Below are positions 51,117-62,985 of a stretch of 64,000 nt of DNA, in pieces. The translations under genes and the position numbers were made by a program. Positions within the stretch are counted from its first letter, which is position 1, and every line of letters starts with the position of its first letter. The stretch lies in contig NZ_LSGQ01000001.1 in NCBI RefSeq assembly GCF_001675285.1, positions 62,001 through 126,000 of the forward strand, in the 5' to 3' direction. The notes below the pieces were generated by a model. It had not been told where the DNA came from and searched no databases. It saw only the letters and a list, made by a program, of their open reading frames with translations. The stretch is from Elizabethkingia miricola (lineage in GTDB: Bacteria > Bacteroidota > Bacteroidia > Flavobacteriales > Weeksellaceae).

Positions 51117-51146
51117 TTTGCAGTTCAAAAATAAGTTATAGATTTG
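51117..51146 (+). promoter_or_regulatory. Promoter of the histidine operon
   Basis: TTTG at 51117-51120, 18 bases, TAGATTTG at 51139-51146; the best complete Bacteroidota promoter in the window. Transcription should start near 51152, giving a 170-base leader up to hisG. Confidence 0.7.
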
Positions 51147-51165
51147 CATAGTAGAAAAACAAAAA

Positions 51166-51225
51166 ATGAAATTCAACGCTGTACATCATCACCATCATCA
51201 TTCTTGCAACAGGCGAGTTGATTAG
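51166..51225 (+). CDS. hisL: his operon leader peptide
   Basis: 19 codons, MKFNAVHHHHHHSCNRRVD, stop TAG at 51223. Six consecutive His codons (CAT CAT CAC CAT CAT CAT, 51184-51201) after a promoter and before a terminator hairpin are the sign of translational attenuation. The peptide itself need not have a role; ribosome stalling at the His codons when charged tRNA-His is scarce is what matters. It is too short for standard gene finders. Confidence 0.92.
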   Translation: MKFNAVHHHHHHSCNRRVD

Positions 51226-51286
51226 TTGTGTGTACACCTAAGATATATAAAACCCGTCTGAGTAGTCATGACGGGTTTTTATTTTT
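51208..51286 (+). promoter_or_regulatory. Histidine attenuator (antiterminator and terminator)
   Basis: Terminator: AAAACCCGTC (51249-51258) / GACGGGTTTT (51270-51279), followed by T-rich sequence. A competing pairing, 8 of 9 positions with one G-U, joins AGGCGAGTT (51211-51219) to AACCCGTCT (51251-51259). A ribosome stalled on the His codons leaves 51211-51219 free for this antiterminator; one that reaches the stop at 51223 covers it and lets the terminator form. Hand-folded only. Confidence 0.8.
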
Positions 51287-51324
51287 CTGCATTGCTGCTC
51301 GGATCCAAACATCAAAAATTAGAC

Positions 51325-52179
51325 ATGAATCTGAAAATTGCAATCCAGAAAAAAGGACGACTTAGCGAAACTTCACTTAAACTGCTTGAAGAATGTGGCA
51401 TCAATATTTCCAACGGAAGCAGAATCCTAAAGGCCACAGCAAAAAATTTCCCAATCGAAATCTTATTTCTCCGTGACGACGATATCCCTCAATATGTAGA
51501 ACAGGGAGTTGTAGACATAGGTATACTTGGTGAAAACGAGGTACTGGAAAAAGATAAAAATATAGATATTATTTCCAGACTGGGTTTTGCAGCCTGCAAT
51601 CTTTGTCTGGCTATTCCTAAAGATGAAGAATACAGCGGAATCAGCTATTTCGAAGACAAAAAAATTGCTACTTCATATCCTAAAATCCTGACTAAATTCT
51701 TTCAAGAACAAAACATCAATGTACAGATTGAAGAAATTGGCGGCAGTGTGGAAATAGCACCAAGCATAGGGCTGGCCAATGCAATATTCGATATTGTAAG
51801 TACAGGTTCTACCCTACTGACGAACGGATTAAAGCAAGTAGAAACAGTAATGAAAAGTGAGGCTGTTCTGGTAGCAGGCAAAAATCTTCCGGAAGCACAG
51901 CAAAAAATTCTCGACCGTTTATCATTCAGAATAAAAGCCGTTCAGAACTCTGCAGAAAACAAATATATTCTACTGAATGCTCCCAATGATAAACTACAGG
52001 AAATCATAGATGTTTTACCCGGAATGAAAGCACCTACTGTACTCCCATTAGCCACAGCGGGCTGGTCCTCGGTACACTCTGTAATTAAAGAAGATACATT
52101 CTGGGAGATTATAGAACAGTTGAAAGACCTTGGTGCAGAAGGCATTTTGGTATTGGAAATTGAAAAGATGATACTCTGA
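51325..52179 (+). CDS. hisG: ATP phosphoribosyltransferase, long form
   Basis: 284 residues from the ATG at 51325. An in-frame ATG at 51268 lies inside the attenuator hairpin and is rejected. Start NLKIAIQKKGRLSETSLKLL, then the PRPP loop region with DIVSTGSTLLTNGLK; the C-terminal 80 residues form the ACT-like regulatory domain that binds histidine (APTVLPLATAGWSSVHSVI), so this is the long, self-contained type that needs no HisZ. It makes the first step of histidine synthesis and should be feedback-inhibited. Confidence 0.96.
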   Translation: MNLKIAIQKKGRLSETSLKLLEECGINISNGSRILKATAKNFPIEILFLRDDDIPQYVEQGVVDIGILGENEVLEKDKNIDIISRLGFAACNLCLAIPKDEEYSGISYFEDKKIATSYPKILTKFFQEQNINVQIEEIGGSVEIAPSIGLANAIFDIVSTGSTLLTNGLKQVETVMKSEAVLVAGKNLPEAQQKILDRLSFRIKAVQNSAENKYILLNAPNDKLQEIIDVLPGMKAPTVLPLATAGWSSVHSVIKEDTFWEIIEQLKDLGAEGILVLEIEKMIL

Positions 52180-52276
52180 TAAAGTACGAAGTTAGAAGTA
52201 CAAAATACGAAGTATAAAATTCACTAATTCACCTATTGACACATTGATATTATAAAATCAGATAACTATACCCCTC

Positions 52277-53578
52277 ATGCAAACCTACATAAATCCACCA
52301 CTTTCCGAATGGAAAAATCTTATTCAGCGTCCTGTACAAAAGGCAGAAGACTTACAAAATATTGTATTGACTGTTTTTGAAGATATAAAAAATCAAAAGG
52401 ATAAGGCTCTTATTGATTATACTAAAAAATTCGATAAAGCAAATCTTACTGATATCAGAGTTTCATCTGATGAAATAAACGCTACAATAACGTCAGTTTC
52501 TGAAGAACTTAGACAAGCAATTCAAATGGCAGCCTCAAATATTGAGAAATTTCACGCTTCACAAAAAGAAAGTAAAAATATTATAGAAACTGCTGAAGGG
52601 GTAAATTGCTGGCGGGAGGCAAGACCAATTGAAAACGTAGGGATCTATATTCCCGGAGGAAGTGCTCCCCTGTTTTCAACTGTTCTTATGTTGGGAATAC
52701 CAGCCCAGTTGGCAGGGTGTAAAAACATTACTTTATGTACCCCTCCCGATAAAAATGGTAATATTGATCCGGCTATACTCTATACAGCTAATCTTATCGG
52801 GATAAAAAATATTTATAAGGCTGGTGGTATACAGGCTATAGGAGCAATGACTTTTGGTACCGAAACTATTGAAAAAGCAGATAAAATATTTGGTCCCGGA
52901 AACCAATATGTAACTGCAGCAAAACAAATTGCTCAAAACTTTGGCGTTGCAATAGATATGCCTGCCGGTCCAAGCGAAGTTCTGGTAATAGCCGATACTA
53001 CTGCTAACCCTGAATTTGTGGCTGCAGATTTACTTTCACAAGCAGAACACGGCGCCGATTCGCAGGTAATATTACTGACGACCGATGAAAATATTCTTCA
53101 GAAAACGCTGACGCAGATAGAGAGCCAGCTTACTCAATTGCCACGAAAGTCGATAGCATCTCAGGCTCTTCTGCAGAGTCGGGGCATCGTTTTAGGCAGT
53201 ATTGAAGAATGTATAGCATTTTCAAACCTCTATGCACCGGAACACTTAATTCTGGCTATTGAAAATACTGAAAATTATACTGATAAGATTACCTCTGCAG
53301 GATCTGTATTTCTGGGCAACTTCTCGTGCGAAAGTGCCGGTGATTATGCATCAGGAACTAACCATACTCTACCCACCAACGGATATGCCCGAAATTACAG
53401 TGGTGTATCTCTTGATAGTTTTGTTAAAAAAATTACATTTCAAAAAGTTACCGAAAAAGGGATTCAAAATATCGGACCAGGTATTGAAAAGATGGCCGAA
53501 GCAGAAGAGCTTTTTGCACATAAAAATGCTGTCTCTGTTCGCCTGAAATCGCTTAATTCCCAAAACAACACACTATAA
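52277..53578 (+). CDS. hisD: Histidinol dehydrogenase
   Basis: 433 residues, usual length. NAD and zinc motifs: KIFGPGNQYVTAAKQIA, MPAGPSEVLVIAD, SQAEHGADSQVILLT (Gln and His zinc ligands) and GTNHTLPT. It oxidises histidinol to histidine in two steps at the end of the pathway. Starts 97 bases after hisG, a gap that contains AAGTACGAAGTTAGAAGT repeat words. hisC begins 3 bases after its stop. Confidence 0.96.
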   Translation: MQTYINPPLSEWKNLIQRPVQKAEDLQNIVLTVFEDIKNQKDKALIDYTKKFDKANLTDIRVSSDEINATITSVSEELRQAIQMAASNIEKFHASQKESKNIIETAEGVNCWREARPIENVGIYIPGGSAPLFSTVLMLGIPAQLAGCKNITLCTPPDKNGNIDPAILYTANLIGIKNIYKAGGIQAIGAMTFGTETIEKADKIFGPGNQYVTAAKQIAQNFGVAIDMPAGPSEVLVIADTTANPEFVAADLLSQAEHGADSQVILLTTDENILQKTLTQIESQLTQLPRKSIASQALLQSRGIVLGSIEECIAFSNLYAPEHLILAIENTENYTDKITSAGSVFLGNFSCESAGDYASGTNHTLPTNGYARNYSGVSLDSFVKKITFQKVTEKGIQNIGPGIEKMAEAEELFAHKNAVSVRLKSLNSQNNTL

Positions 53579-53581
53579 AAG

Positions 53582-54616
53582 ATGAAAAATTTTAATTTAG
53601 AAAATCTGGTTCGTCCCAACATCCTGAAATTAAAACCTTATTCTTCTGCCAGAGATGAATACAAAGGAAGTACAGGTGTATTTCTGGATGCCAACGAAAA
53701 CCCTTTCGGTACTCTCAATCGCTACCCCGACCCTTATCAGAAGGAAGTAAAAGAAAAGTTAAGTGCTTTAAAAAGCATTCCTGTAACACAAATATTTTTG
53801 GGTAACGGTAGTGATGAAGTCATAGATCTGGTGTTCAGAATTTTCTGTACACCAGGCCGTGACAAAGCTTTAGTATTTACACCTACTTATGGGATGTATG
53901 AAGTTTCAGCAAATATTAACGATACTGAACTTTTGCAACTGCCTCTTAACAGCGATTTTCAAATTGATAAAGAATCTATTCTCCCCTTTCTGACAGATGA
54001 AAATCTAAAACTTATTTTTATATGTTCTCCTAACAATCCTACAGGTAACAGCATAGAAAATGTAGATTTCATTCTGGAAAATTTCAACGGAATTGCATTC
54101 GTGGACGAAGCTTACATTGACTTTAGCGCTCAAAAGAGTTGGGCCGAAAAACTAAGCCAATATCCAAATCTTATCATTAGCCAGACTTTCAGCAAAGCCC
54201 GTGGATTGGCAGCTGTACGTGTTGGCATTGCTTACAGTTCCCCAGAGATTATTGCATTATTCAATAAAACAAAACCTCCGTACAACGTAAGCCAGCTTAA
54301 TCAGGAAGCTGCTTTAATAGCCTTGTTAGATGATAAAAGGTACCAATCTGAAATAAAAACTATTCTCGGAGAAAAAGAACGCCTGGAGAAAGAACTTCTT
54401 CAATTATCGGTTATCAAAAAAATCTATCCGTCTGATGCCAATTTTATTTTAGTTGAAGTGAATGATGCTGATGGAATTTACAATAATTTAGTTCAGCAAA
54501 AAATTATTACCAGAAACCGAAATAGTGTAATAGCCAGTTGCATAAGAATTACCATAGGAACAACAGAAGAAAATAACCAGCTGATTGCAGCCTTAAAAGC
54601 TTATAAAATTAGCTAA
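53582..54616 (+). CDS. hisC: Histidinol-phosphate aminotransferase
   Basis: 344 residues, fold type I PLP enzyme. LDANENPFG is the HisC start motif, SPNNPTGNS binds the cofactor region, and SQTFSKARGLAAVRVG holds the Schiff-base Lys (SKARG). It transfers an amino group from glutamate to imidazole acetol phosphate. The next his gene, hisB, is 540 bases away because of an inserted cassette. Confidence 0.96.
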   Translation: MKNFNLENLVRPNILKLKPYSSARDEYKGSTGVFLDANENPFGTLNRYPDPYQKEVKEKLSALKSIPVTQIFLGNGSDEVIDLVFRIFCTPGRDKALVFTPTYGMYEVSANINDTELLQLPLNSDFQIDKESILPFLTDENLKLIFICSPNNPTGNSIENVDFILENFNGIAFVDEAYIDFSAQKSWAEKLSQYPNLIISQTFSKARGLAAVRVGIAYSSPEIIALFNKTKPPYNVSQLNQEAALIALLDDKRYQSEIKTILGEKERLEKELLQLSVIKKIYPSDANFILVEVNDADGIYNNLVQQKIITRNRNSVIASCIRITIGTTEENNQLIAALKAYKIS

Positions 54617-54637
54617 GTGTAATAAAGTGTCAAGGTA

Positions 54638-55150
54638 TAAGGCTTTTAGTTATAAGGATAATTAAAATAGAGAATAGTTAAATTTAAAAACTGATCATAA
54701 ATTAAAACCTTTAGAATTAAAATATTATAACCAAAAACACACAAAATTATGAACACATTTCAAAATCTTATTGTATGGCAAAAATCACATGAATTGGTAT
54801 TAAAAATCTATGAAGCCACTAAAAATTTTCCTAAAGAAGAAATATATGGAATTACCAATCAAATAAGAAGAGCATCCTACTCTATTCCAGCAAATATAGC
54901 AGAGGGCAGAAAGAAGAAAACCCAAAAACATAAAATAAGTTTTCTTTCCCATTCGGAAGGCTCATTGGAAGAAGTAAAATATTTTTTAATTCTCTCGAAA
55001 GACCTTCGATATATTAGTAATGAAATATTTTTACAATTATTTAATTGTGCTGAGGAAATCGGAAAACTTATCAGTGGATATGAAAAATTTTTAAAGCAAA
55101 ACAATAAACCCAACCCCTTATAACTAATAATCTTATAACTTATAGCCTTA
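54638..55150. mobile_element. Inverted-repeat-flanked cassette with a four-helix-bundle gene
   Basis: TAAGGCTTTTAGTTATAAG (54638-54656) and CTTATAACTTATAGCCTTA (55132-55150) are inverted copies, 17 of 19 positions. They frame a 513-base stretch with a single gene (54749-55123). The right end lies 6 bases before the hisB ATG. This is the layout of the intervening-sequence (IVS) element found in 23S rRNA genes, here in a protein-coding operon. No transposase is present, so the way of moving is unknown. Confidence 0.55.
54749..55123 (+). CDS. Four-helix-bundle protein (23S rRNA IVS/S23 type)
   Basis: 124 residues, cytosolic, strongly basic at its ends. FQNLIVWQKSHELVLKIYE, then FPKEEIYGITNQIRRASYSIPANIAEG and a third segment around FLSHSEGSLEEVKYFLIL are the marks of the family PF05635, named after proteins encoded in 23S intervening sequences and related to the Avd subunit of diversity-generating retroelements. 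No reverse transcriptase is near, so this is not a DGR. Function unknown. It interrupts the his operon between hisC and hisB. Confidence 0.9.
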   Translation: MNTFQNLIVWQKSHELVLKIYEATKNFPKEEIYGITNQIRRASYSIPANIAEGRKKKTQKHKISFLSHSEGSLEEVKYFLILSKDLRYISNEIFLQLFNCAEEIGKLISGYEKFLKQNNKPNPL

Positions 55151-55156
55151 GAAAAA

Positions 55157-56290
55157 ATGAAAAAAGTCCTATTTATAGACCGTGACGGAACTTTGGTGTT
55201 AGAACCGGAAGATTATCAGGTAGACAGCTTTACCAAATTAGAATTCTACCCAGAAGTATTTCAATATCTTTCAAAAATTGCAAAGGAACTCGATTATGAA
55301 TTGGTAATGGTAACTAACCAGGACGGATTAGGTACTGATGTTCACCCTGAAGAAAACTTCTGGCCGGTACACCAGTTTATTATTAAAGCGCTTGAAAATG
55401 AAGACATTTATTTTTCTGAAGTACTTATTGATAAAACCTTTCCTTCTGAAAATGCTCCTACCCGAAAGCCTAATACCGGGTTACTTACCCGTTATATCAA
55501 TAATCCTGAATACGATTTACAAAACTCATATGTAATCGGGGATAGAATCACGGATGTAAAGCTGGCAAAAAACTTAGATTCAAAGGGGATTTTTATTGCT
55601 AATGATGAAAATCTTGGAGCTGAAGAAATATCAAAAGAAGAAAGCCTTGAACAATATATTGCTCTAAAAACAACTTCATGGAAAGCTATCTACGAATTCC
55701 TGAAGCTGGAATCCCGTACAGCCTCGGTTGAAAGAAATACAAATGAAACAAAAATTAAAATTAAGCTAAATCTGGATGGTACCGGAAAATCCAATATACA
55801 AACAGGACTTGGATTCTTTGACCATATGCTGGATCAGATTGCCCGCCACGGACAAATGGATTTAGACATAAAAGTCAGTGGTGATCTGGAAGTAGATGAG
55901 CACCATACTATAGAAGATACCGCTATTGCATTAGGTGAAGTATTTTCTACAGCTTTGGGTAATAAATTAGGAATCGAACGTTATGGCTTTACCCTGCCTA
56001 TGGACGACTGCCTGGCACAGGTAGCTATAGATTTTGGAGGAAGAAACTGGCTGGTATGGGATGCTGATTTTAAAAGAGAAAAAATAGGAGAAATGCCTAC
56101 AGAAATGTTTTATCATTTCTTCAAATCTTTTACCGACGGAGCTAGAGCCAATCTAAACATTCAATCGGAAGGACAAAATGAGCACCACAAAATAGAAGCT
56201 ATTTTTAAAGCTTTTGCTAAAGCTATAAAATCTGCTGTAAAACGTGATCCAGAAAAAATGATACTTCCCTCTACCAAAGGAATGTTATAA
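55157..56290 (+). CDS. hisB: Bifunctional histidinol-phosphatase/imidazoleglycerol-phosphate dehydratase
   Basis: 377 residues, fusion of two enzymes. N-terminal HAD phosphatase: FIDRDGTLV (D8, D10) and [14 protein letters not shown]-terminal IGPD from about 180: [32 protein letters not shown] and a second histidine cluster in [15 protein letters not shown], all manganese ligands. The fused form is known from gamma-proteobacteria and Bacteroidota. It makes steps 7 and 9 of the pathway. Confidence 0.96.
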
Positions 56291-56302
56291 AATTAGGAGT
56301 AA

Positions 56303-56333
56303 GCCTTGTCAAGGTTTAAAACCTTGACAAGGC
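56303..56333. repeat. Palindrome between hisB and hisH
   Basis: GCCTTGTCAAGGTTT (56303-56317) / AAACCTTGACAAGGC (56319-56333), 15-bp perfect arms with a one-base centre. Same GGTTT/AAACC core as the palindromes at 16437 and 21775. Lying inside an operon it might attenuate or stabilise the mRNA. It is followed by GTACTTCTAACTT repeat words. Confidence 0.6.
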
Positions 56334-56389
56334 TCATTAATCGACATTCGTACTTCTAACTTTTAACTTTATAATTCTAAATTAAAAAC

Positions 56390-56968
56390 ATGATTGCTAT
56401 TGTTAAATATAATGCCGGTAATGTAAAATCTGTCTATAACGCAGTAACCCGATTGGGTTATGACGCAGTGATTACAGACGATCCTGAGCTTCTGAAAAAT
56501 GCAGATAAAGTAATCTTTCCCGGGGTTGGGGAAGCCAGCTCGGCTATGAAGTATTTACAGGAAAGAGGACTGGATAAAATTATCATTAACCTGAAACAGC
56601 CTGTATTGGGAATATGCCTTGGTCAGCAACTGCTTTGCAGATATTCTGAAGAAGGCAGTGTAGATTGTTTGGGTATATTCGATGCCGGAGTCCGAAAATT
56701 TCCTGCTGAGGATATTGTCCCGCACATGGGCTGGAATACACTTACTGATCTGAATAGTACTATTTTCAATAGTATTGGAGAGAGTGAAGATGTTTACTAT
56801 GTACACGGCTATTATTGTGAACTTTCAGAAGATACAGCTGCTGTTACAAACTATATTTTGCCCTTTTCTGCGTCATTTCAGAAAGAAAATTTCTATGCGA
56901 CCCAATTTCACCCTGAAAAATCGGCATCAACAGGCGAAAAAATACTAAAGAATTTTCTAAGTTTATAA
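56390..56968 (+). CDS. hisH: Imidazole glycerol phosphate synthase glutaminase subunit
   Basis: 192 residues, class I glutamine amidotransferase. Nucleophile C76 in GICLGQQLLC, and the His-Glu pair in FHPEKSAS near the C-terminus. It hands ammonia to HisF, whose gene lies 4.7 kb downstream after two unrelated genes. The protease gene starts 15 bases after its stop. Confidence 0.95.
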   Translation: MIAIVKYNAGNVKSVYNAVTRLGYDAVITDDPELLKNADKVIFPGVGEASSAMKYLQERGLDKIIINLKQPVLGICLGQQLLCRYSEEGSVDCLGIFDAGVRKFPAEDIVPHMGWNTLTDLNSTIFNSIGESEDVYYVHGYYCELSEDTAAVTNYILPFSASFQKENFYATQFHPEKSASTGEKILKNFLSL

Positions 56969-56983
56969 AAAAATTAACTGTAT

Positions 56984-59900
56984 ATGAAAAAACTTTATGT
57001 TTCACTATTAACTGCCTTTACAATTCTTCAGGTTTCGGCACAGGATAAATCCTACTTTTTATCAAGCCCTTCGCTGAGTCCGGATGGGAAAACTGCTTAT
57101 TTTGCCTATGACGGAGATATATGGAAAGTAGATTCTAATGGTGGGAATGCATCGAGAATAACAGCCCTTGAGGGAGAAGAAATCAATCCACGTGTATCCC
57201 CGGATGGAAAATGGCTCGCATTCAGCTCCAATCAATATGGAAATTATGATGTCTATCTAATGCCGGTTGAGGGTGGAACTATAAAGCAATTAACCTTTCA
57301 CACAGGAAAAGATGAAGTAGAAAACTGGGGATGGGACAGTAAAACTATTTATTTTACTTCAAGCAGAAATAATAATTTCGGAAGCTTTAAAACGACTATA
57401 GAAGGGAAAACTCCACAAAAGCTTTTCAACAACTATTTTAATAATACTAATGGACTGGCAGAAACTCCTGCGGGGGAATATCTGTTTACAAGTTCTATGG
57501 AAAGTGCAAATCAGACTTACCGCAAACGTTACAAAGGAGAAAACAATCCCGATATTCTGGGCTATAATCCGAAGGCCAATACTTTTAAACAATACACCAA
57601 TTACGAAGGAAAAGATTTCAATCCAAGTGTAGATAAAAATGGTATTATTTATTTTATTTCAGACGAAAATAATAACGAATACAATCTTTATAAAATAGAG
57701 AATGGCAAAAAAACAGCATTAACACAATTTGATACTTCTATCAAAAAACCTTTTGTTGCAGCAAACGGATCTAAAGTAATCTTTGAAAAAGACTATCAGC
57801 TTTACATATATGATGTAGCTTCAAAAAACACAAAACTGCTGAATGCCAGTCTGAATACGAATAAGACACTGGAAAAAGAGCAGAACTTTAGTGTGGACAA
57901 TACTATTTCCTATTACGATGTATCACCAGACGGTAAAAAAATGGCTTTTGTAAGCCGTGGAGTACTGTTTGTTTCAGATGTTGAAGGAAAATTCACACAA
58001 CAGGTTTCTGACGGTAAAGAACGTGTAATGGAAGTAAAATGGTTAAAAGATAACCGTACATTACTTTTCAGTCAGACCGATAAAGGCTATCAGAACTGGT
58101 TCACAATTTCTGCAGACGGGAAAGGACAACTAAAACAATTAACACACGATGCCCGCAATAACCGCAGTATCACACTTAATAATGATCTTTCAAAAGCTGT
58201 TTATTTGAGTGGCCGTGATGAAGTCAGATTATTGGATTTAAAAACCTTTACTTCCAATACTATTGTAAAAGATGAGATTTGGGCATTCCAAAATTCAAGA
58301 CCATCTTTTTCACCGAATAATGAATATGTATTATTCTCTGCAAAAAGAAATTTTGAACTGGACATCTTTGTCTACAACATTAAGAAAGGCCAAACTATAA
58401 ACCTTACCAATACCGGAGTCTCCGAGGAAGATCCTTATTGGTCTCCAAATGGGAAATATATCTACTTTGCAAGTGACAGAACCAACCCATCCTACCCTTT
58501 AGGTATGCAAAAATCCAATATTTACCGTATGGCTCTGGACTGGTTCGACGAACCTTATAAGTCTGAAAAGTTTGATAAACTATTTACAGAGGAAGCAAAA
58601 GAAACTAAACCTGCAGACACTGCAAAGGATACAAAAAACAGTAAGGATAAAAAGTCTAAAGAAACTAAAAAAGAAGAAGTTACTGACAAAAAAGAAGAGA
58701 AAGAGCCCGTAATTAAGGAATTAAAAGTTAACCCAGAATATGCTCTGGAAAGAATTGAACTGGTAACTGACAGATATGGATATCAGGAAGATCCAACAGT
58801 TTTTGCTGATGATAAAAAAGAAATTCTGTTGTATAATTCCAATCAGGACAACGGAAAAAGGCAACTTTATAAAAAGGTTTTCACTGATTTCGAACCTGCA
58901 AAATCCGAGAAGGTATTTGATAAAGCAGCCTATTATATCACAAAAAATAATAAAAATCTTTTTGCGCTAATAGAGGGCAATATTTATAAAATGTCTTTAG
59001 CGGCTTTAAAACCTGAAAAAGTAAACATCCAGTATACCTTCAATAAAGACCTGGCTTCCGAATTTACCCAGATGTATGATGAAACCTGGACAGGCGTTGA
59101 AGAGAACTTCTATGATGAGAAATTCCACGGCATTAACTGGAAAGCCAAAAAGGAGCAATATGCTAAGTATGTTCCGTATGTAAACAACAGAAATGATCTG
59201 AGAATTTTGCTGAACGATCTTTTGGGAGAACTAAACTCCTCACATACCGGATTCTCTTCAGTCGGAAAAGAAGAAACCAAACAACTAAACTACTTTACAA
59301 ACGAAACAGGAATTATCTTCAAGAAAGATCAGCCTTATACAGTAGAAAGTATTGTACGGAAATCGCCGGCATTTCTGTCCGGAGTGGACATTAAGCCGGG
59401 AGATCAGTTAGTAACTGTAAATGGCAAAAATATCGATACCCGTGAAAACCGTGAGTCTTATTTTGCTACTCCTAAAAAATTGGATGAATTAGTTCTTATT
59501 TTCAACCGTGGTGGAAAAAATATCACAACAAAAGTACACCCTGTTTCGAATATGGAGCTAAAAGGCTTGCTTTATGATGACTGGATTTTCACCAACCGTC
59601 AGCGTGTTAACCAGCTTAGTAACAATCGTATTGCTTATTCGTACATGAAAAATATGTCTACAGATGAGCTGGATCGCTTCCTACTGGATATGGTAGAACA
59701 GGAGAACAGAAAAGATGCTGTCATTCTCGATTTGCGATATAACACAGGTGGAAATGTTCATGATAAAGTACTAAACTTCTTATCACAGAAACCTTACCTG
59801 CAGTGGAAATACCGGGAAGGAAAAATGACAACACAGCCAAACTTTGCTCCTTCCGGGAAGCCTATAGTAGTGTTAATTAATGAAAGTTCTTTAAGTGATG

Positions 59901-60181
59901 CAGAGATGACAGCAGCAGGATTTAAAGCCTTGAAACTTGGAAAAATTATAGGACAGGATACTTACCGATGGATCATCTTTACTTCAGGAAAAGGTCTTGT
60001 AGACGGATCTTCTTACAGACTACCTTCCTGGGGAACTTATACACTGGACGGACAGAATCTGGAAAAGACTGGTGTAAAACCAGACATTTATATTAAAAAC
60101 ACCTTTATGGACCGACTACAGGGGAATGATCCACAACTGGACCGGGCCATTCAGGAAATATTAAAAGATTTAAAAAAATAA
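56984..60181 (+). CDS. Tricorn-like S41 family protease, secreted
   Basis: 1065 residues with a signal peptide (cleavage near LQVSAQ). Domain order: PD40/WD40-like beta-propeller repeats over about 25-520 ([26 protein letters not shown], then [12 protein letters not shown]); a charged linker near 545-575 rich in Lys and Glu; a tricorn C1-like helical domain (about 690-770); a PDZ domain (about 775-860); and an S41 catalytic domain with LDLRYNTGG and the nucleophile S971 in SLSDAEM. Tricorn is a large peptidase that degrades short peptides. Its stop is one base from hisA. Confidence 0.9.
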
Positions 60182-60182
60182 A

Positions 60183-60899
60183 ATGCGAATAATCCCGGCT
60201 ATAGATATTATTGAAGGAAAATGTGTACGCCTGTCACAGGGAGATTATGACACCAAGAAAATTTATAATGAAAATCCTCTGGAAGTAGGCAAAGAGTTTG
60301 AAGACTATGGAATCCGTTATCTGCATCTTGTGGATCTGGATGGTGCAAAATCCAAACAGATTATCAACTACAGAACACTGGAAGAATTAGCTTCAAAGAC
60401 TTCATTACAGATTGATTTTGGTGGTGGTATCAAGTCTCAAAAAGATATTGACATTGCCTTTGAATGCGGTGCCAAGCAAATTACTGGTGGAAGTATAGCT
60501 GTACAGGAGCCTGAAATTTTCACTAAATGGATTGAGGTTTATGGGTCAGAGAAAATAATTTTGGGGGCTGACTGTAAAAACCGAAAAATTGCTACCCATG
60601 GCTGGCTGGAATCCTCAGAACTGGATGTTATAGATTTTATCCGGGATTATAAGCAAAAAGGTATTTCTTACGTTATATGTACAGATATTGCAAAAGACGG
60701 TATGCTGGAAGGAACCTCCAATGAGTTGTATAAAGAAATACTGACGAACACTGCTGTAAAACTTATTGCTTCCGGTGGAGTTTCCAATATAGAAGATCTG
60801 CATCTTCTTAAAGAAATAGGTTGTGAGGGGGCTATTCTCGGAAAAGCCATTTATGAGGGAAGAATAAAACTAAAAGAACTTCGTGAATTAATTTCATAA
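60183..60899 (+). CDS. hisA: Phosphoribosylformimino-5-aminoimidazole carboxamide ribotide isomerase
   Basis: 238 residues, TIM barrel. [13 protein letters not shown] holds the first catalytic Asp, IDFGGGIKS a phosphate-binding loop, and [15 protein letters not shown] the second Asp; [11 protein letters not shown] closes the phosphate site. It performs the Amadori isomerisation before HisF. Stop to start distance from the protease gene is one base, so both are on one mRNA. Confidence 0.96.
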
Positions 60900-60919
60900 A
60901 TGAAGTATTGCAAATTTTA

Positions 60920-61585
60920 ATGAAACGGATGAAATATTTAAAACTGATAGGTATACTGCTGTTGTTTTCAGTAAAGCTAAAAGCTCAAACGGATGCCATT
61001 AATATTATTCAGAGACCAATAGAATTCAATCAGGAGCGTATTGACCTTAGTCTCGACTATATGCGCACCCATTATGGTATCGTACAGAAAACGCCAACAA
61101 TAAATCCTTTAATGATTGTACTTCATTATACGGAAGTTGGTACGTTGGAGCATAATATCCGGTATTTCAACAATACTTACCTCAACGGACGTAAAAACCT
61201 GTCTCGCGAAAGTGCACTGAATGTCTCTTCACAATTCATTATTGATCGTGATGGTAGTATTTACCAGTTAATGCCACCTACTCAGTTTGCAAGACATACC
61301 ATAGGACTTAACTATTGTGCTATAGGTATTGAGAATATCGGGGGCAGTAAACAGCCTCTAACAGAAGCACAGGTAGAAGCTAATGCAAAGCTGATCCGCT
61401 ACCTTACCAAAAAATACGCTATACAGTATCTTATTGGTCATTCTGAATATGGCATATTCCGGAATTCATCTCTATGGAAAGAGAAGAACCCGAATTATTT
61501 TACCGAAAAATATGATCCCGGAGCCAGTTTTATGCAAAAAGTAAGAGCCAAGATCCAGGATCTTCATTTGAAAAGTACCCCGTAA
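60920..61585 (+). CDS. N-acetylmuramoyl-L-alanine amidase (Amidase_2)
   Basis: 221 residues from the ATG at 60920; a second ATG at 60929 is equally good, and both give a signal peptide (YLKLIGILLLFSVKLKAQ). The zinc-amidase fold is seen in MIVLHYTEVGTLEHNI (first His), FARHTIGLNYCAIGIEN and YLIGHSEYGIF (third His). Such enzymes cut the bond between muramic acid and the peptide in cell wall. Its role in a histidine operon is not obvious; the gap to hisA is about 20 bases and to hisF 63 bases. Confidence 0.88.
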   Translation: MKRMKYLKLIGILLLFSVKLKAQTDAINIIQRPIEFNQERIDLSLDYMRTHYGIVQKTPTINPLMIVLHYTEVGTLEHNIRYFNNTYLNGRKNLSRESALNVSSQFIIDRDGSIYQLMPPTQFARHTIGLNYCAIGIENIGGSKQPLTEAQVEANAKLIRYLTKKYAIQYLIGHSEYGIFRNSSLWKEKNPNYFTEKYDPGASFMQKVRAKIQDLHLKSTP

Positions 61586-61648
61586 TAAAGGATTATAAAT
61601 ATTTAATAATCTGAGAAAAAGTAATAACATAAAGAGCTAACCAAAAAC

Positions 61649-62407
61649 ATGCTAAAAAAGAGAATCATACCCTGCCTGGATATAAAAGACGGAAGAACCG
61701 TAAAGGGCATTAACTTCGAGGGATTACGCGATGCCGGTGATCCGGTAGTATTGGCTCAGAAATATGTAGAAGAAGGAGCAGATGAACTTGTATTTCTGGA
61801 TATTTCTGCTACGCAGGAAAAGCGTAAAACATTGGCTGATTTAGTCGAGAGGATTGCGCAGGAGATTAATATTCCGTTTACTGTAGGTGGCGGTATCAAC
61901 TCCGTAGAAGATGCAGCAACTATTATAAAAGCAGGTGCCGATAAAATTTCCATAAACTCTTCAGCAGTTAAGAATCCGCAGCTGATCAGTGATCTCGCAG
62001 CTCGTTTTGGCAGTCAGTGTGTTGTTGTCGCCATAGATACCAAAAGTATGAATGGTACAGAAAAAGTATTTGTAAACGGTGGAAAAATAGAAACGGAGCT
62101 TGAAACCTTAATCTGGGCAAAAGAAGCTGAAAAATTGGGTGCAGGAGAAATCCTGTTAACGTCTATGAATGCTGATGGCACAAAAAATGGATTCGCACTG
62201 GATATAACACAACAGATTGCCCAGCTAGTCAATATTCCTGTAATTGCATCCGGAGGAGCCGGTAAAATGGAAGACTTTAAAGAAGTTTTTGAAAAGACTA
62301 AAGCCAGTGGTGCTTTAGCAGCGAGTATATTCCATTTTGGAGAAGTACCAATTCCACAACTTAAACAATATCTAACTCAACAAAACATTCCGGTAAGATG
62401 GAAATAG
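61649..62407 (+). CDS. hisF: Imidazole glycerol phosphate synthase cyclase subunit
   Basis: 252 residues, TIM barrel. [19 protein letters not shown] includes the first catalytic Asp, [12 protein letters not shown] a phosphate loop, and [15 protein letters not shown] the second Asp; [11 protein letters not shown] is the last phosphate loop. Works with HisH. The last ten bases overlap the start of hisIE. Confidence 0.96.
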
Positions 62408-62985
62408 ATTTTAATAAAAACAAAGATGGTTTAGTTCCGGTTATTATCCAGAACTATCTGACCGAGCAGGTTCTTATGCTGGGTTATATGAATCCTGAAG
62501 CTTATAATAAAACCAAAGAAGAAGGAAAAGTCACCTTCTTTTCCCGCTCAAAAAACAGGTTATGGACAAAAGGAGAAACTTCCGGGAATTTTCTGGAAGT
62601 GAAAGAAATCTTATTGGATTGTGATCAGGATACTTTACTTATAAAAGTAAAGCCTAATGGCCCAACATGCCATACTGGTAGTGTATCATGTTTTGGGAGT
62701 CAGTCCCGAAAAGGATTTTTATACGAATTGCAACATGTAATTTCGGATAGAATAGATAACAATATTGAAAATTCTTATACCAATCAACTATACAAAAGGG
62801 GGATTAATAAAGTAGCTCAAAAAGTTGGTGAAGAAGCCGTGGAGGTCGTAATTGAAGCTAAAGACAATAACGACGATTTATTTAAAAATGAGTCAGCAGA
62901 TCTCCTCTATCACTATCTTATTCTATTAAAAGCCAAAGGTTTTACTCTGGAAGATATAGAAGCTGTCTTACGCGAAAGACATTAA
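62398..62985 (+). CDS. hisIE: Bifunctional phosphoribosyl-AMP cyclohydrolase/phosphoribosyl-ATP pyrophosphatase
   Basis: 195 residues. The N-terminal PRA-CH domain has [20 protein letters not shown] and the zinc site CDQDT plus CHTGSVSCF; the C-terminal PRA-PH domain has [18 protein letters not shown] and [13 protein letters not shown]. It carries out steps 2 and 3 of the pathway. Overlap of 10 bases with hisF, last gene of the operon, with a terminator right behind. Confidence 0.96.

Follow-up and report, generated by a model that had tools for sequence, protein, structure and literature searches.

In the window (the whole 64,000-nucleotide stretch of Elizabethkingia miricola DNA analyzed here), the element that stands before hisG is almost certainly a ribosome-mediated His attenuator, as judged from sequence comparison, and we somewhat favor the view that it carries a second, translational layer. 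The five helices from which this proposal is built, named for the segments that they join (1:2, 2:3, 3:4, 3:5 and 5:6), each find support in comparison with related genomes. At the center of the proposal lies a start-codon mimic, which we regard as an evenly balanced possibility for the Bacteroidia his attenuator: the terminator loop resembles the start of hisG, both would compete for one anti-start segment, and one strand would thus set termination and then the translation of leaked transcripts. His attenuators are best known from Proteobacteria, and a His leader precedes hisG in most of the examined genomes of one Bacteroidota class. If the proposal is true, such a leader controls translation without a Shine-Dalgarno sequence, a copy of the start codon serving to titrate the anti-start strand, and this would add a principle of regulation in a phylum that abounds in the gut and in many waters.

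Organization of the locus

The region that separates an MFS transporter gene from hisG contains, read along the forward strand, a promoter, a short A-rich stretch, a 19-codon open reading frame (ORF), a hairpin, a T-rich tract and 38 bases. The preliminary description of the interval 51117–51324 had called the promoter complete and had read a 19-codon peptide with six consecutive His codons, and both readings were borne out. The promoter (51117–51146) consists of a −33-like TTTG at 51117–51120 and the −7 box TAGATTTG at 51139–51146, which is of the Bacteroidota TAnnTTTG type. Among the 191 leaders found in related genomes (see below), TAnnTTTG occurs within 60 nt 5′ of the leader ATG in 160, against 6.5 expected from mononucleotide shuffles, and since it ends a median of 18.5 nt before the ATG in these 160, the leader 5′ UTR should be short. 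A generic sigma70 and terminator scan returned neither the promoter at 51117–51146 nor the terminator at 51249–51279; its rules (TTGACA/TATAAT; terminator loops of 3–8 bases without a bulge), the wrong consensus for Bacteroidota, probably explain both misses.

The leader peptide ORF MKFNAVHHHHHHSCNRRVD spans 51166–51225 and ends in a TAG stop codon at 51223–51225. By codon reading, its six His codons, the proposed stall site, occupy 51184–51201, and this is the sole run of at least five CAY codons in the 4.29-Mb genome. The hisG gene (51325–52179, forward strand, Pfam-supported) starts at the ATG at 51325, in agreement with its relatives (consensus MSKLKIA.. versus MNLKIA..), encodes a HisG with 99% identity to the one in a named Elizabethkingia occulta record, which likewise places the window in or very close to Elizabethkingia, and is the first gene of an operon that reads hisG-D-C-(IVP)-B-H-(S41)-A-(amidase)-F-IE (51325–62985, forward strand), in which hisG, IVP, hisB, hisH and S41 are supported by Pfam and the remaining names come from ORF reading. 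Three genes stand among the his genes: one for a 23S rRNA-intervening-sequence protein (Pfam 23S_rRNA_IVP; 54749–55123) inserted between hisC and hisB, one for a tricorn-like S41 peptidase (Pfam; 56984–60181) between hisH and hisA, and, between hisA and hisF, one that by ORF reading probably encodes an amidase (60908–61585).

The claim that the leader must be initiated by a mode other than Shine-Dalgarno pairing holds, in that the 3′ tail of the genome's 16S rRNA, GGAACATCTCATTTT, is without CCUCC; the mode itself is ordinary for the class, not special. Elizabethkingia is named among the genera without CCUCCU (PMC6107228), an alternative UCUCA core is reported for Chryseobacteria and relatives (PMC9976891), and in the same source initiation in the class is said to depend, in place of Shine-Dalgarno pairing, on adenines upstream of the start and on little structure at it (PMC9976891). 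The leaders examined here have an A-rich upstream region.

Distribution of His leaders

We gathered the regions upstream of hisG from related genomes, 225 distinct genomes of Bacteroidia in all, and set aside 16 of them, which form one family with 0.6-Mb genomes and without a leader, to leave 209. A leader was scored where the roughly 330 nt 5′ of hisG contain a short ORF in which nine residues include three or more His; 191 of the 209 genomes have one, and in 177 a terminator follows it. The same search on the antisense strand gave a His leader in 6/209, and upstream of ilvD, pheA and trpE in 1/60. The 209 genomes fall into 36 families. One or more leaders occur in 31 of them, and in 28 of them a leader is accompanied by a terminator; leaders are absent from the nine genomes examined in five families (f17, f38, f52, f55 and f71). 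A set of 80 named loci, nine of which repeat earlier loci, gave a leader in 72 and a terminator in 70. Setting the leader start at the last ATG cut some leaders short, those of genus g9 among them (MHHHHH..), and the base-composition count restored such leaders where an ATG stands 15 nt upstream. Terminators were called with a contiguous-stem finder; an earlier finder had taken the 1:2 or the 3:5 hairpin in loci L015, L019 and L155, among others. The family genomes with a HisG match numbered 97; seven were left out (G047, G068, G074, G081, G111, G115 and G135), as were ten 0.6-Mb genomes (f15), G162 (split), G227 (weak match), G315 and G278 (split). The hisG gene is split into two parts separated by about 1.7 kb in G081 (C1:786933–789518), and into two overlapping parts, with one internal stop, in G068 (C1:366633–367471).

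In family f49, each of the seven genomes examined (L195, L198, L200, L201, L210, L225 and L226) carries a His leader ahead of hisG, and none has a recognized intrinsic terminator; in several the His-codon hairpin reaches across the leader stop codon, and the f49 attenuator is possibly Rho-dependent or purely translational. Five leaders from families f28, f16 and f58 (L074, L087, L077, L085 and L199) end in ..HHSS*; in these the stop codon is flanked by the two halves of a palindrome, the last codons TTCCTC and a GAGGAA after the stop, and a recognized terminator is lacking in all but one.

The attenuator core

The 141-nt leader RNA has an unusually stable fold (z −3.92; none of 200 shuffles as good), the best form of which combines a helix over the His codons (1:2) with the terminator (3:4). 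Helix 1:2 (51180–51236), which the preliminary description had overlooked, pairs 51180–51192 with 51225–51236 in this fold and encloses segment 2; its z lies below −1.5 in 45/64 genera and its own pairing exceeds swapped pairing in 48/64. Its role would be to hold the antiterminator strand when no ribosome opens the helix.

Segment 2, the antiterminator strand (51204–51219), pairs with 51251–51265 according to covariation and the swap test, around a core of CAGGCG (51210–51215) with CGTCTG (51255–51260). The antiterminator pairing of 51211–51219 with 51251–51259 given earlier thus exists, its real extent being slightly longer. Segments 3 and 4 form the intrinsic terminator hairpin at 51249–51279, directly followed by a T-rich tract (51280–51286), and the terminator placed there by the preliminary description is upheld by the fold and by the covariation of 3:4. 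Antiterminator and terminator are mutually exclusive, segment 3 being common to both. Segment 2 also lies where it had been said that a stalled ribosome would leave it free, between the His run and the leader stop (51223): taking the generally known size of the ribosome footprint, a ribosome at the leader stop would cover segment 2, which would stay exposed with a stall at the first His codons.

An alignment of the leader across related genomes, the check that had been proposed, has both terminator and antiterminator covarying. We chose 64 leaders for this alignment (A1) and kept 59, dropping L031, L033, L168 and L180, which have another type of terminator, and L167, a near-copy. Helix 2:3 is paired in 83.3% of cells with a covariation score of 0.230 and helix 3:4 in 90.1% with a score of 0.278, and for both helices the paired cells and the score are higher than in every shuffle and every slid version; the further pair types of 2:3 (10) show no excess, being matched by 303/500 shuffles. 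With one locus per genus, the 2:3 pairing of a leader exceeds that with a segment swapped in from another genus in 60/64 genera. The swap and rank tests for 2:3 and for 3:5 used the 177 of 191 leaders with a recognized terminator. Ribosome-mediated His attenuation is therefore the best reading, as had been suggested, because the His run, 2:3, 3:4 and the position 5′ of hisG are conserved and the helices covary. The features described for 51117–51324 were confirmed; besides helix 1:2, the description had missed segment 5, which lies inside the interval.

Segment 5 and its pairing with segment 3

Segment 5 (GCTGCTCGGAT, 51294–51304) follows the terminator within the hisG 5′ UTR, 20 nt 5′ of the hisG ATG, and has either segment 3 or the hisG start region as its partner. 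It is the complement of the tip of the terminator 5′ arm together with the loop, that is, of the part of segment 3 at 51256–51266 (GTCTGAGTAGT), and the window duplex of GCTGCTCGGAT with GTCTGAGTAGT comprises eleven pairs at −15.9 kcal/mol. Several lines of comparison make it very likely that 3:5 is a real RNA pairing. It ranks within the best 3 of 60 shuffles in 78/89 loci of family f1 and 19/27 of family f3, and exceeds swapped pairing in 105/116 f1 and f3 loci together, in 32/37 genera on the Flavobacteriales side (one locus per genus) and in 37 of 45 named loci of the same terminator type, none of them identical to earlier loci. Outside the Flavobacteriales side the own pairing exceeds the swapped one in only 10/27 genera. 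The 3:5 pairing is found among named records that include some titled Bacteroidales, so segment 5 follows the CCGTYTGA terminator type and not one order. Among the leaders of other terminator type that were dropped from the alignment, L180 shows a clear 3:5 close to the start, and L031, L033 and L168 do not.

In the alignment, 3:5 is paired in 92.6% of cells. Its covariation score of 0.311 is the top one among 3:5, 2:3, 3:4 and 5:6, the four helices tested, and its slid controls do not exceed 0.073; its double-change pairs (7) are matched by 27/500 shuffles. Loop and partner change together (GAGTAAA/TTTACTC, GAGTACA/TGTACTC, GAGCA/TGCTC, GAACA/TGTTC, GAGTTTT/AAAACTC). Among 97 loci of this terminator type, which are those that could be placed from 101 and some of which repeat a genome, at least nine of ten pairs form in 76 (11.2 expected from shuffles) and all ten in 58 (0.9 expected). 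The gap from segment 5 to the hisG ATG is 14–20 nt in 64 of the 76. On a HisG tree of 76 paired loci, whose rows had been pre-chosen for pairing, 62 rows have three Watson-Crick pairs at the loop triple, and among these the triple changed at least four times; one arm base changed five times among 75 rows. Repeats in the tree and gap loci are three of L031–L060, which repeat genomes of L001–L030, and nine named loci that match earlier ones. The thought that 2:3 alone accounts for the conservation of the loop was dropped: in L006 and similar relatives 3:5 also takes in loop bases that are unpaired in 2:3, the end of the loop having no partner except in 3:5.

Segment 5 and the hisG start

The second partner of segment 5 would be segment 6, the hisG start region (51325–51334), of which 51326–51327 and 51329–51334 pair with 51306–51307 and 51299–51304, respectively. 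We consider it likely, from the comparisons that follow, that this 5:6 pairing is real. Among 127 hisG starts, 59 read ATGAGTAAA, like the terminator loop, and taking the majority within each genus a start of the form ATGAGY or ATGAAC is found in 20/23 genera with segment 5 and 2/11 without it. In the 59 aligned leaders 5:6 scores 0.195, and 88.5% of its cells are paired; its variety of pairs shows no excess over shuffles (184/500 reach it in double-change pairs and 258/500 in further pair types). The own pairing exceeds that with swapped starts in 21/24 genera. In the genus of the window the hisG start has drifted to ATGAATCTG, and 5:6 has shifted so that it joins UCGGAU to AUCUGA and takes in two bases of the AUG; the register is shifted in the window because hisG starts with ATGAATCTG. 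In the more distant congener L005 both strands of 5:6 differ, yet they pair in the fold. Genera g29, g64, g77 and g17 have 3:5 present and 5:6 weak.

The codons of hisG itself lean toward the pairing. With the protein held fixed, hisG codons 2–5 of 24 genera give a 5:6 sum of −178.4 against −99.5 (sd 9.8) for synonymous draws, and 34 named loci, all distinct from earlier ones, give −235.8 against −175.0 (sd 12.7), these sums overstating independence in that the genera share ancestry; individually, 25 of the 34 loci are better than the draws and nine show no such preference.

These results bear on the simplest alternative, a plain transcription attenuator in which segments 1–4 work the way they do in enteric his operons, segment 5 being a by-product without regulatory effect on translation. 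Segments 1–4 are widely present and covary, as it would have them; segment 5 is absent or in the minority in 11/34 genera, and it was sought in vain in the leaders of other operons of the same family, 24 for trpE (mean z −0.10; rank within 3 of 60 in 3/24) and five for ilvD. A mere by-product would nevertheless fit poorly with the highest covariation score among the four helices, with a mostly fixed distance from the AUG and with a hisG codon choice biased toward pairing with segment 5, and we consider this alternative unlikely.

Predicted effect on the hisG start

Predicted accessibility of the hisG start is 0.36 where segment 5 is present (n = 106) and 0.54 where it is not (n = 21), with 0.66 for trpE (n = 25), 0.61 for ilvD (n = 13) and 0.48 for pheA (n = 19). 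In the window the hisG AUG, at 0.46, is ordinary among eight window genes (0.27–0.90), and the post-terminator fold that would mask the start is only moderately unusual (z −1.69; 12/200 shuffles as good). When segment 5 is blocked, the predicted AUG accessibility goes from 0.39 to 0.59 on average, rising in 15/24 genera, staying nearly unchanged in eight and falling in one. As the predicted accessibility rises on blocking segment 5 and the class needs unstructured starts, the start is most likely concealed by 5:6 and released by 3:5, and we lean toward 3:5 as the ON state and 5:6 as the OFF state.

Energies were computed at equilibrium in 24 genera, each helix being forced in turn. Segment 3 takes part in 2:3, 3:4 and 3:5. 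Most genera show the energy order that the proposal calls for: 3:4 lies below 3:5 in 21/24, with the reverse in three, which speaks against a locking of segment 3 there, and 3:5 lies below 2:3 in 19/24, with 2:3 not above 3:5 in five, which speaks against a hand-over. In the window 3:5 is better than 2:3 by only 1.2 kcal/mol, which is within model error. Given the order 3:4 below 3:5 below 2:3, a formed terminator should keep segment 3, and the antiterminator can pass it to segment 5.

The proposed mechanism and its alternatives

The stalling of ribosomes at the His codons, the order of exchange and the ON/OFF sense are inferred. In the first layer, scarce His-tRNA would stall the leader ribosome, which would open 1:2 and free segment 2; segment 2 would then pair with segment 3, 3:4 would not form and RNA polymerase would enter the his operon. 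Once at the stop, the ribosome would cover segment 2, and in the absence of a ribosome 1:2 would hold it; in both cases 3:4 would form and transcription would end. The second layer would be confined to RNA that extends beyond the terminator. There, 5:6 would hide the AUG from ribosomes that need an unstructured start instead of a Shine-Dalgarno sequence, and 3:5 in place of 5:6 would free it. In antiterminated RNA segment 3 would pass from 2:3 to 3:5 and hisG would be translated, and where transcription leaks through a terminator that has formed, segment 3 of the RNA would stay locked in 3:4, leaving segment 5 to mask the start and silence the leak. A persistent 2:3 would count against this proposal, as it would leave segment 5 free to mask hisG in starvation, which is the wrong sense.

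That last case is the starting point of a reading with the opposite sign, in which 3:5 is the OFF state, its helix end about 17 nt 5′ of the AUG blocking the landing of the ribosome, and starvation keeps 2:3 with hisG open. With a persistent 2:3 this sense would suit the physiology, and 3:5 does end near the initiation region. The greater stability of 3:4 over 3:5 and of 3:5 over 2:3 in most of the 24 genera implies, however, that 3:5 is not the structure of leaky RNA, and both the covariation of 5:6 and the codon bias would be left unexplained, so we hold this reading to be quite improbable.

Action in trans is less probable again. The loop of the terminated leader RNA would here pair with segment 5 of the his mRNA and alter its translation or stability; the complementarity is identical in cis and in trans, terminated RNA would abound when histidine is plentiful, and the trp attenuator RNA rnTrpL is a precedent for a terminated leader that acts in trans. 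Against this, 7 of the 11 segment-3 bases of 3:5 are already paired in the terminator fold of the window, and cis pairing should win through proximity. That the repeated TGAGTAAA/TTTACTCA motifs, near-identical in three copies in one leader (loop, segment 5 and hisG start), are DNA or RNA binding sites of a regulator protein is hardly credible, as compensating changes and G-U pairs accompany the variation of the motif from lineage to lineage, and the pairing reaches into the terminator arm.

Comparison with known systems

The attenuator proposed here resembles the enteric his attenuator (hisL), in which a His-codon leader peptide and alternative antiterminator and terminator structures precede hisG, as at this locus. 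It departs from hisL in that the leader is without a Shine-Dalgarno sequence and in its extra segment paired with the hisG start region. The window leader scores 23.2 bits (E 0.27) against the Rfam hisL family RF00514, below the cut-off of 49, and neither the region upstream of hisG in the window nor those of 11 related loci gave an Rfam match at the gathering level. Sub-cut-off hits (His_leader, Thr_leader and others) were set aside; the best, a snoRNA on the opposite strand with E 0.014, lies far below its cut-off and was taken as chance. No T-box was among the Rfam matches of the window (E up to 1) or among gathering-level hits in the 11 loci.

Within the phylum, a transcriptome study of Flavobacterium psychrophilum proposed attenuation by leader peptides for amino-acid operons and noted a 5′ element of hisG that is conserved in Flavobacteriaceae and has no Rfam hit (PMC9723704). 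Going by the available part of that account, its element is very probably the same as the one described here, and neither segment 5 nor a link to the hisG start is named in that part (PMC9723704). In the open-licence literature we found no description of segment 5 and, from 2020 on, no work joining leader peptide, attenuation and Bacteroidota.

The Bacteroid-trp motif RF01692 is reported as a cis-regulatory candidate in Bacteroidetes (PMC2864571). It differs from the His element in that the amino acid there is Trp, and segment 5 is absent from the trpE leaders tested. At 26 trpE loci of the family (L296–L321) the leader carries WWW in 21, each with a terminator, WW in three and WCW in one, and one locus has no leader under the criteria applied; the leader of the genome studied here (L308) is of the WWW type, MKFNTNNTNWWWLSKSMSDLDASSMYYN. 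Terminators also stand before ilvD in some family genomes, the present one included (L265, L262 and L273), and the ilvD leaders of L262 and L273 are rich in Ile, Val and Leu.

Two systems of Bacillus subtilis have two tiers, as proposed here. The trp leader under TRAP joins attenuation to a structure that blocks initiation at the first gene, as the present leader would; as far as the available text goes, it differs in sensing tryptophan through a protein and in masking a Shine-Dalgarno sequence, not a start codon (PMC12288461). The tlrB (yxjB) leader shares with the present one a leader peptide and a terminator, and has the ribosome stall and the hairpin silencing readthrough RNA that are proposed here; there the stall is induced by a drug, no overlapping antiterminator is identified in the part of the report available, and again a Shine-Dalgarno sequence is masked (PMC6851288). 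Measured against these systems, the attenuator before hisG appears to be known in kind, and nearly so at hisG itself, and the segment 5 that would mask the hisG start appears to be its new part.
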